Below are positions 14,754-17,187 of a stretch of DNA of 44,380 nucleotides, piece after piece. Within the stretch, counting starts at the first letter, position 1, and each line of letters begins with the position of its first letter. The stretch comes from Spirochaetes bacterium GWB1_60_80. GTDB lineage: Bacteria; Spirochaetota; Spirochaetia; Treponematales; UBA12059. The DNA lies in assembly GCA_001829185.1 (NCBI GenBank), contig MIAR01000051.1, positions 1-44,380 of the forward strand. Direction: 5' to 3'. Both the position numbers and the translations under genes were made by a program. The notes beneath the pieces were generated by a model. It had not been told where the DNA came from. It saw only the letters and a list, made by a program, of their open reading frames with translations, and ran no database searches.

Positions 14754-15392
14754 TCAGCCAATCTCGACCAGACGACGCTTGACCGACAGCATGGCAAAGC
14801 CGGATGACAGGTCTTCATTCTGCACGACGACCGAATCGGGCGCTTTCACTTTACAGTTGGTAAAATTCCAGATGGCGGTGATGCCGGCGGCCACCAAACG
14901 GTCGGTTAAGTCCTGAGCCTTGTCGCGCGGCACCGTCAAGAGCGCCAGACTGACCTTCAGGTCGACGACTCGACCGGCCAACTCGTCCATTGGCAGAACT
15001 GGCACCCCATGGATCTGTTGGCCGGCTTTGGCTGGATTGCTGTCGAAGGCCGCCACGAAACGCAGACCGTGGGTGGTAAAACCAGAATAGCCAATCAAGG
15101 CGCTACCCAAATTACCGGCGCCGACCACAATAGCCCGGTGCTCTTCGTCCCAGCGCAGGAAGTGCTCGATGGTTGCCACCAGCTCCTTGACCGGGTAACC
15201 CTTTTTGGGGCGGCCACTAATACCGGTGATGGCCAGGTCTTTGCGGACCTGGATCGGCTCAAAGCCGAGTCGGTTGGCGACATAGGTGGCCGACAGGTAT
15301 TCCTGACCCTCTTCCTGAATTTCGCGGGCTACCAGCAGATATGAAGGCAGGCGACGGATGGATGGCGCGGACATTACCTTGAGCTTGGACAT
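14754..15392 (-). CDS. rex: Rex, NADH/NAD+-sensing transcriptional repressor
   Basis: The 212-residue protein has the Rex layout. A winged-helix DNA-binding domain (residues of about 10-80, LPSYLLVAREIQEEGQEYLS, IQVRKDLAITGISGRPKKGY) precedes a Rossmann domain with IVVGAGNLGSALIGYSGF. It ends with the swapped helix region containing ITAIWNFTNCKVKAPDSVVV and VQNEDLSSGFAML. Rex homodimers repress fermentation and respiration genes when the NADH/NAD+ ratio is low. The ATG at 15392 is preferred over a TTG 6 nt upstream, because GGAG lies 6-7 nt before it. The gene lies 3 bp from the MITE-like element downstream. I saw no obvious Rex operator in this window. Confidence 0.95.
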   Translation of the reverse strand: MSKLKVMSAPSIRRLPSYLLVAREIQEEGQEYLSATYVANRLGFEPIQVRKDLAITGISGRPKKGYPVKELVATIEHFLRWDEEHRAIVVGAGNLGSALIGYSGFTTHGLRFVAAFDSNPAKAGQQIHGVPVLPMDELAGRVVDLKVSLALLTVPRDKAQDLTDRLVAAGITAIWNFTNCKVKAPDSVVVQNEDLSSGFAMLSVKRRLVEIG

Positions 15393-15425
15393 GGACAACT
15401 CCGATGGATTCGATTAACAGCTTTT

Positions 15426-15466
15426 GCAGGCGTTGAAAAGCCGCCTTCGCGTTTTTCAACACCTGC
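15426..15466. repeat. Structured repeat family, copy 3 (single hairpin, diverged)
   Basis: GCAGGCGTTGAAAA pairs with TTTTCAACACCTGC around a GCCGCCTTCGCG apex, with one mismatch. This matches hairpin H1 in reverse orientation with altered outer arms whose complementarity is kept. It lies 33 bp upstream of the rex start and could form in the rex leader. Confidence 0.75.
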
Positions 15467-15528
15467 CAGTTGTTAGTATAGCGAAAAAAAGCGCGAAATA
15501 AAACAGCTGCTAACCGAACATGGATTAT

Positions 15529-15579
15529 CGGCTTTTGAAGTGTTGAAAAGCCGCATCCGCGTTTTTCAACACCCTGCTA
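15529..15579 (-). repeat. Structured repeat family, copy 4 (H1 with linker)
   Basis: GTGTTGAAAAGCCGC ... GCGTTTTTCAACAC preceded by CGGCTTTTGAA matches the H1 end and adjoining linker of the full-length copies in reverse orientation. It then continues as CCTGCTA. The central and third hairpins are absent. It lies between rex and the candidate small RNA. Confidence 0.8.
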
Positions 15580-15604: not shown

Positions 15605-15652
15605 AAAAAAAGGAAAGCTCCGTGGAAAAAGGAGGTAAAACCACGGAGCTTT
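15605..15652 (-). terminator. Intrinsic terminator after pyrFE
   Basis: The stem AAAGCTCCGTGG (15614-15625) with CCACGGAGCTTT (15641-15652) is followed on the minus strand by CC and TTTTTTT (15611-15605). It serves the pyrFE transcript and, if real, the small RNA starting at about 15671. Confidence 0.85.
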
Positions 15653-15671
15653 GTGTAGAACGTTAGACTAC
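15605..15671 (-). ncRNA. Candidate ~67-nt small RNA with anti-Shine-Dalgarno loop
   Basis: A promoter-like pair at 15678-15706 would start transcription near 15671. The transcript would end in a perfect 12-bp hairpin with CC and seven U residues. The 15-nt loop reads UUUUACCUCCUUUUU and contains ACCUCCUU, identical to the 16S rRNA 3'-end anti-SD. The loop is otherwise A/U-rich, so the C-rich core would be exposed. Alternatively, the hairpin is simply the terminator of pyrFE, which ends at 15748. No homologue is known to me. Confidence 0.4.
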
Positions 15672-15677
15672 GGTATA

Positions 15678-15706
15678 AATATACAAAGAAATCGACTTTT
15701 ATGCAA
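15678..15706 (-). promoter_or_regulatory. Sigma-70-like promoter between pyrFE and its terminator
   Basis: On the minus strand TTGCAT (15706-15701) is followed after 17 bp by TATATT (15683-15678). The position, downstream of the pyrE stop and just before a terminator, is what a short stand-alone RNA gene would need. Confidence 0.5.
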
Positions 15707-15747: not shown

Positions 15748-17187
15748 TCACTCGGCGTCGGCATAGGCTTCCATGCTCTGCCTGGCCGTCCCGTCGATCA
15801 GACCGAGGTTCTCCAACAGGGCAAACAGTTCGCGGACATGGAAGAAGGCGGCCAGACGCACCTGTTGGGCGGCCATATCCTTGCGGCCCTGCTTGCCGCG
15901 CTCGATCAGCACTGCCAGATCCTCCACCACCAGGCCTTCGGCGCGCAGAATCTCGATGGCCTCCAGCTTGGAGGCTCCCGTGGTGATCAGGTCATCCAGC
16001 AGCAATACGCGCTCGCCCTTGACGAACACGCCTTCCACCCGAACGCCGCTACCATGATCCTTGACCGGCATGCGCGGCCAGATCATGGGCTTGCCGATTT
16101 TAAGCGACACGGCGGTGGCCAGAGGCAGGGCGGCGGCCGGAATACCGGCAATCCGGTCGAATTTAAAATCGCGGCACACGTAAGCATAGGCCTCGGCCAC
16201 GGCATCAAGCAGGGCCGGCGAGGCGATAACCCGCCGCAAATCAACGTAGAAGGGGGAAATCTTGCCGCTTTTCAGGGTAAAGGAGCCGGTCTTGAAGCAG
16301 CCGGTCTCCACCAGGCCGCGCAATACCCGGCGCTTGAGGGCATCCACCGGCTTCTGGCTGACCGCAGCGCTCGCCAGTGGGACGGCCGCGTCATCACGGG
16401 CCGAGCCACCGTGCCTAGCGCCATCGCGGGCGCGTTGCAAGGCTTCGACAAAGCCAGCCGCCGCCACTCCCGGCCGCTCGGCGCCGGCTACCGCCCGGGC
16501 CACCACCGGCAGAATGCCTAGGCCATCGGCGCGGGCGCCGGCCAGCCAGGCGCGGCCGATGTCTCCGCCCTGGGCGCCGATACCAGGCGCCAGGAACCAG
16601 GCCTGCGGCGTTACTTGTCGCACGGCCGCCAGGCCACGCTCGTCATTGCCGGCCACCACCAAACCCACCCGGTCAGACCAGCTGGCGGCCTCGGCGGCCA
16701 CCCGGCAGTAAAGCGGCTGGCCATCAACCAGAATATCCTGGAAAACCCCGGCCCGTGGGTTACTGGTCCGGGCCAGCACGAACACGGCCTTGCCGGCGTA
16801 AGCCAGGAACGGATCGACCGCGTCCCGGCCCATATACGGGCTGAGGGTCACGGCCGCGGCGCCGAGGCTTTCAAAACAAGCCTTGGCATAGGCTTCGGCG
16901 GTATTGCCGATATCGCAGCGCTTGGCGTCCAGCAGCACCGGCGCCTCGGCCGGAATATAATCGATAATACGCTTCAGGACCGCCAAACCTTCCGGGCCGA
17001 GCGCTTCGTAAAAGGCGATGTTCGGCTTATAACAGGCTGTAAACGGCAAGGTTTCGTCAATAATGCGCCGCGCCCAATCAAATAAGCTGGCGGTGGTCTG
17101 ACCGGCCGACAATTGCGGATCGAGTCCAACGCATAACAAACTGCCCTTCTTTTGCCAGGCGGTCGTTACTACCTCAAAAAAGTTCAC
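15748..17187 (-). CDS. pyrFE: Bifunctional OMP decarboxylase / orotate phosphoribosyltransferase
   Basis: The 479-residue protein fuses the last two enzymes of UMP synthesis in the order PyrF-PyrE. Residues of about 1-265 are a type 2 OMP decarboxylase: LLCVGLDPQL, ACYKPNIAFYEALG, the catalytic-region LLDAKRCDIGNTAEAYAKA and WFLAPGIGAQGGD. Residues of about 285-479 are orotate phosphoribosyltransferase: FTLKSGKISPFYVDLRR, DRIAGIPAAALPLATAVS and the PRPP loop RVLLLDDLITTGASK. The second glycine of the usual DAKRGDIG motif is cysteine here. This order is the reverse of animal UMP synthase and is known in some bacteria. An intrinsic terminator follows 100 bp downstream. Confidence 0.95.
   Translation of the reverse strand: MNFFEVVTTAWQKKGSLLCVGLDPQLSAGQTTASLFDWARRIIDETLPFTACYKPNIAFYEALGPEGLAVLKRIIDYIPAEAPVLLDAKRCDIGNTAEAYAKACFESLGAAAVTLSPYMGRDAVDPFLAYAGKAVFVLARTSNPRAGVFQDILVDGQPLYCRVAAEAASWSDRVGLVVAGNDERGLAAVRQVTPQAWFLAPGIGAQGGDIGRAWLAGARADGLGILPVVARAVAGAERPGVAAAGFVEALQRARDGARHGGSARDDAAVPLASAAVSQKPVDALKRRVLRGLVETGCFKTGSFTLKSGKISPFYVDLRRVIASPALLDAVAEAYAYVCRDFKFDRIAGIPAAALPLATAVSLKIGKPMIWPRMPVKDHGSGVRVEGVFVKGERVLLLDDLITTGASKLEAIEILRAEGLVVEDLAVLIERGKQGRKDMAAQQVRLAAFFHVRELFALLENLGLIDGTARQSMEAYADAE

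Follow-up and report, generated by a model that had tools for sequence, protein, structure and literature searches.

We have found, on the minus strand of a 44,380-nucleotide stretch of DNA from Spirochaetes bacterium GWB1_60_80 (the window), a compact transcription unit that is predicted to specify a 67-nt RNA and that carries the anti-Shine-Dalgarno (anti-SD) sequence of 16S rRNA in the loop of its terminator hairpin. Homologous units recur upstream of rex, which encodes a redox-sensing repressor, with the loop kept while the stem covaries. We consider it probable (about 0.72) that the unit specifies a standalone, Hfq-independent, trans-acting small RNA (sRNA) whose anti-SD loop blocks the translation of certain mRNAs, limited in number, by pairing with their SD sequences. 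The 3' hairpin would serve both as the intrinsic terminator and as the display for the 15-nt loop; once paired with the SD region of an mRNA, the loop would keep the 30S subunit from binding and so turn translation off. Outside Borrelia, little is known of how spirochaetes regulate their genes after transcription, and a search of relatives turned up no Hfq; if our reading is correct, a conserved rex-linked sRNA family with the 16S anti-SD in its loop is a candidate riboregulator for the clade. Many spirochaetes appear to carry a tiny RNA gene beside rex that can probably silence mRNAs by covering their ribosome-binding sites.

The transcription unit and its loop

The unit opens with a sigma70-type promoter (15678..15706, minus strand) made up of the -35 element TTGCAT at 15706-15701, a 17-nt spacer and the -10 element TATATT at 15683-15678. 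The predicted 67-nt RNA (15605..15671, minus strand) starts with a G at about 15671, and at this predicted +1 begins a 5' hairpin with a 4-bp stem, GTAG(tctaacgtt)CTAC (15655..15671, minus strand). The main hairpin (15614..15652, minus strand) has a perfect 12-bp stem, AAAGCTCCGTGG/CCACGGAGCTTT (arms at 15652-15641 and 15625-15614), for which both the fold and covariation argue. Its 15-nt loop, TTTTACCTCCTTTTT (15626..15640, minus strand; written UUUUACCUCCUUUUU where the hairpin is described), contains the anti-SD segment ACCUCCUUU at 15636-15628 of the same strand, and the terminator T-tract CCTTTTTTT occupies 15605..15613, also on the minus strand. The fold energy of the 67-nt RNA is -22.4 kcal/mol, against -7.1 for shuffles (z -7.7). 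Reading the minus strand and folding the RNA thus bore out the TTGCAT-17-TATATT promoter, the 67-nt product and the large hairpin with terminator that the initial annotation had proposed; the promoter is absent from the list of a general promoter and terminator scanner, whose terminator rule takes loops of at most 8 nt. Within the window ACCTCCTTT alone is nothing out of the ordinary, and the 11-mer ACCTCCTTTTT occurs a single time in the whole 3.6-Mb genome.

A 16S gene was not found in this draft genome. The 16S 3' end reads GGATCACCTCCTT in 16 relatives from the program-assigned families f1, f3, f4 and f5, and in the 12 16S copies read the next two letters are TC or TT; it is because of these ends that the loop can be equated with the anti-SD, as the initial annotation had held. 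Since a chance match of the loop is possible from one genome alone, conservation across relatives decides. That comparison, set beforehand with a stem kept and a loop changed as the adverse outcome, gave the reverse: the loop sequence persists while changes in the stem are compensated. The segment CCTCCTTT is invariant in all 22 aligned rex-linked homologues, the stems of which differ (GCTCCGTGG, GGCGCTGAGG, GCACCGGGG, AGCCCCGGGG), and a loop core of CCTCC or CTCCTT is present in 61/61 aligned units and 42/42 model matches. Across the 61 units both sides vary in 9 of the 12 pairs, and the covariation score is 0.541 against 0.163 in shuffles, none of 500 of which reach it, in an alignment that was fitted to the structure and so is biased towards it, although the inner pairs are evident on inspection. 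Cells in which both sides change number 139 in these units, against 33.9 in shuffles and 13-21 with the partner slid, counts that are not independent events because the units share descent. Selection on a terminator alone could preserve the hairpin, though not the sequence of its loop.

The promoter and the 5' hairpin are also retained. In 52 of 59 units the promoter outscores shuffles (Wilcoxon p 6e-10), TTGCAT-17-TATATT precedes the homologous RNA at the majority of f1 rex loci and at several in f4, and most rex-linked promoters have this form or a close variant of it. Nearly all of 26 homologues have a hairpin at the predicted +1 or close to it, even though the sequence changes (mean z -2.1; z < -0.5 in 25 of the 26). 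By eye, no site resembling the Rex operator TTGTTAA-N4-TTAACAA, a form that may not be the clade's, was recognised at the sRNA promoter. We note that, where an anti-SD hairpin is not beside rex, TGTAAC(C/T) is often found 44-92 nt upstream of it, like an ECF-sigma promoter, and that in many such copies a GTT-rich element follows about 15-16 nt after it. The TGTAAC(C/T) element is present in 19 of 103 units, whereas other windows taken from these loci predict 1.1 (copies so preceded are L192, L194, L197-L199, L208, L209, L211, L215-L219, L221, L224, L225, L108, L110 and L130).

Linkage to rex and spread of the family

In the window the RNA lies between a pyrF-pyrE fusion upstream (15748..17187, minus strand), an adjacency that is not conserved, and rex downstream (14754..15398, minus strand), which is the conserved neighbour. 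We note that pyrF and pyrE form one fused 479-aa protein, as in many relatives. The sole other genome of the genus (G001; the genome of the window is G000) has pyrE, then a cNMP-binding gene (named by eye), then the RNA unit and then rex. Local alignment of the two genomes gives a block of 116 nt that is 88% identical and runs from just upstream of the -35 element to the end of the terminator, with flanks that cannot be aligned. Because the block is intact before rex in G001 though the gene after pyrE differs, and because the flanks are unalignable, the RNA unit is, judged from sequence, a gene of its own and not the terminator of pyrFE.

The unit is found upstream of rex at 23 of the 30 rex loci read (16/19 in f1, 7/8 in f4 and 0/3 in f5), as seen by a motif search together with a covariance model; the motif search selected on the loop, and chance, with three 7-mers over 700 nt, would give about one locus in 8. 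All of the rex-linked loop-motif matches sit inside a terminator hairpin, and the distance from unit to rex is steady at about 100-260 nt. These loci, together with the gene order in G001, make rex the partner gene in place of pyrE, with which the initial annotation had associated the RNA. Searching both strands with a covariance model recovered the unit at the rex locus L012 and gave no strong match at the rex loci L019, L026 and L027; there was no covariance model match in Alkalispirochaeta alkalica, a named relative with rex, and no match in the viral contigs searched. The linkage does not hold in f5, nor for many other copies. Two imperfect palindromes, mutually 86% identical (GTGTTGAAAA...TTTTCAACAC), lie before rex in the window at 15412-15466 and 15523-15577; nothing in the corresponding part of G001 matches them.

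The 27-nt hairpin core is present unchanged in four genomes from three genera; a search of 394 genomes of the order that tolerated up to 3 mismatches found it in no other. Covariance models reach further: model R1 matches 237 of the 394 genomes of the order, and model R2, run on 392 genomes of the phylum, matches 133, for the most part relatives at class level; both counts include low-scoring plain terminators. One R1 match (L116, 37.5 bits) proved to be a plain terminator with the loop TTTTT, and the low-scoring genomes of R1 and R2 are therefore not all real. Among about 80 places fetched, nearly all have the CTCCTT or CCTCC loop core. The loop pattern with GG...CC flanks matches 15 of 18 f1 genomes, the reversed control none there; in f3 the strict loop pattern is not enriched, and the reversed control is at least as common. 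No family in Rfam 15 scored over its gathering score for the hairpin in a covariance-model search, and a match of L110 to LhrC was far below that score. The relatives detected by the covariance models extend across the class Spirochaetia.

We also note variation in how the anti-SD is presented in relatives. In 6 of the 61 and 24 of the 42 copies another CCTCC lies no more than 70 nt upstream, and many relatives have a second CCTCC directly before the terminator hairpin or tandem anti-SD hairpins (the latter at L190 and L205; second-CCTCC or tandem copies are L107, L108, L111, L114, L130, L190, L191, L194, L196-L199, L202, L203, L205, L208 and L212-L216). Some genomes have a second anti-SD hairpin whose stem differs, being GAGCTTCCGGG/CCCGGAAGCTC or similar, and whose promoters are of TTGACA or TTGACG type (L117, L118, L119, L136 and G020:C100:70524). 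At L110 (1662-1749; f3, Treponema-like) a TD-2 RNA (RF03162) adjoins the anti-SD hairpin on the opposite strand.

Candidate targets and competing explanations

Hfq (PF17209) scored over the cut-off in none of 59 genomes (G000 and 58 relatives, drafts included), with five control genomes positive; this suggests that the RNA acts independently of Hfq, although a protein missing from draft genomes is not proof. The short loop makes about 8 bp of pairing available. Its full complement, AAGGAGGT, occurs 3-9 nt before an ATG at 8 sites in G000 and 11 in G001, and the reversed control pattern is commoner, with 15 sites in G000 and a count above that of AAGGAGGT in G001 as well. The 8 sites in G000 amount to about six plausible genes. 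Because perfect 8-nt SD sites are few, selective silencing would be likelier than global repression; the earlier suggestion that the loop could pair with many ribosome-binding sites holds for its capacity to pair with SD sequences, whereas for full 8-nt pairing the breadth falls away. Likely real genes at AAGGAGGT sites, named by eye, include a flotillin-like gene in both genomes (L236, L237), with glycine dehydrogenase, a 6-pyruvoyl-tetrahydropterin-synthase-like gene and lipoproteins at others. As an extended target, the 13-nt loop complement has, beyond the RNA genes themselves, one-mismatch matches only, mostly not before a start codon. We note separately that a ferredoxin-like gene in two species (G015 and G020; L157 and L158, around 1500) has before its start AAAAAGGAGGTCAA, an unusually long match to the complement of the loop at the ribosome-binding site. 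From the rex neighbourhood alone we infer a role for the RNA in redox, perhaps fermentative, metabolism. More tentatively, and with some doubt on our part, one or several anti-SD sRNAs per cell might set the translation of SD-dependent messages throughout the class, with a tie to rex for some and to an ECF-sigma-like promoter for others, forming Hfq-free post-transcriptional regulons.

Other explanations of the hairpin have to be weighed against a trans-acting sRNA. A perfect GC-rich stem followed by a T-tract and positioned after pyrE in the window is what one would expect of a simple intrinsic terminator for pyrFE or another gene upstream, with a meaningless loop. We regard this rival, which the initial annotation had itself raised, as very unlikely: the loop is invariant while the stem varies, and the account fails for pyrFE because the unit keeps its own conserved promoter, with the 5' hairpin, and stays with rex when the preceding gene changes. 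The constant placement of the unit about 100-260 nt before rex would suit a cis-acting leader or attenuator of rex, with conditional transcription through the hairpin. Yet in many relatives what looks like a separate rex promoter (TTGACTT...) lies between the hairpin and the start codon, members of the same hairpin family lie far away from rex both in f5 and in other parts of the class, and a non-systematic inspection revealed no alternative antiterminator pairing, so that we think regulation of rex in cis unlikely.

It is also conceivable that the loop mimics the 16S 3' end and binds not mRNA but a protein that acts on that tail, such as Era or another 30S maturation factor. Some f5 loops lengthen the identity to AUCACCUCCUUU, matching the 16S 3' end; this extension is, however, missing from the family of the window and from most others, and the core that is conserved coincides exactly with the SD-pairing stretch, which makes protein binding quite improbable in our judgement. 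Lastly, the reverse complement shows GGAGG in a hairpin loop, and a plus-strand copy could in principle be the active one, with AAGGAGG serving as a CsrA-type binding site or as a ribosome-binding site. The promoter, the 5' hairpin and the T-tract are nevertheless all conserved and all on the minus strand, and the plus-strand open reading frame is antisense to pyrE; we give this possibility hardly any credence.

Comparison with known systems

A trans-acting sRNA with an anti-SD loop can be set beside several known RNAs. RoxS of Bacillus is an sRNA controlled by Rex via an operator, and RoxS/RsaE (Bacillus, Staphylococcus) resemble the spirochaete RNA in their tie to Rex biology and in their use of C-rich regions for G-rich mRNA sites (PMC5419742). 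Unlike RoxS/RsaE, the spirochaete RNA is tied to rex by neighbourhood only, and its motif is the full anti-SD. The 6C/B11 RNA has two C-rich loops that pair with G tracts, and to our knowledge these loops have no identity with 16S rRNA. It belongs to another phylum, the Actinobacteria, and the spirochaete RNA has no match in Rfam. The C-rich hairpin loops of 6C/B11 pair with G-rich sites in 5' UTRs (PMC10470900), and the title of Mai et al. 2019, cited there, describes the RNA as chaperone-independent.

The closest parallel is with the NfeR1/alpha-r14 sRNAs of Rhizobiales (alphaproteobacteria), whose hairpin loops carry the anti-SD sequence CCUCCUCCC (PMC10746234, PMC3927594), and the impression that a perfect anti-SD loop was without precedent did not survive this comparison. 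NfeR1 is Hfq-independent, and translational silencing at the SD through its anti-SD seeds has been proven experimentally (PMC10746234); in NfeR1/alpha-r14 the loops are conserved while the stems diverge (PMC10746234, PMC3927594). The spirochaete RNA likewise keeps its loop and diverges in its stem, and likewise appears to be Hfq-independent, given that no Hfq exceeded the cut-off in the 59 genomes. The two differ in motif (CCUCCUCCC in NfeR1/alpha-r14, ACCUCCUUU in the spirochaete RNA) and in architecture, NfeR1 being 123 nt long with three hairpins that each bear CCUCCUCCC, whereas the spirochaete RNA is about 67 nt long with one anti-SD hairpin; the latter, moreover, belongs to another phylum, lacks an Rfam match and is linked to rex. 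Because its motif and hairpin number are not those of alpha-r14, we keep the spirochaete RNA separate from that family. It would, therefore, represent a new family that, as far as its sequence tells, has the same working design as NfeR1/alpha-r14.
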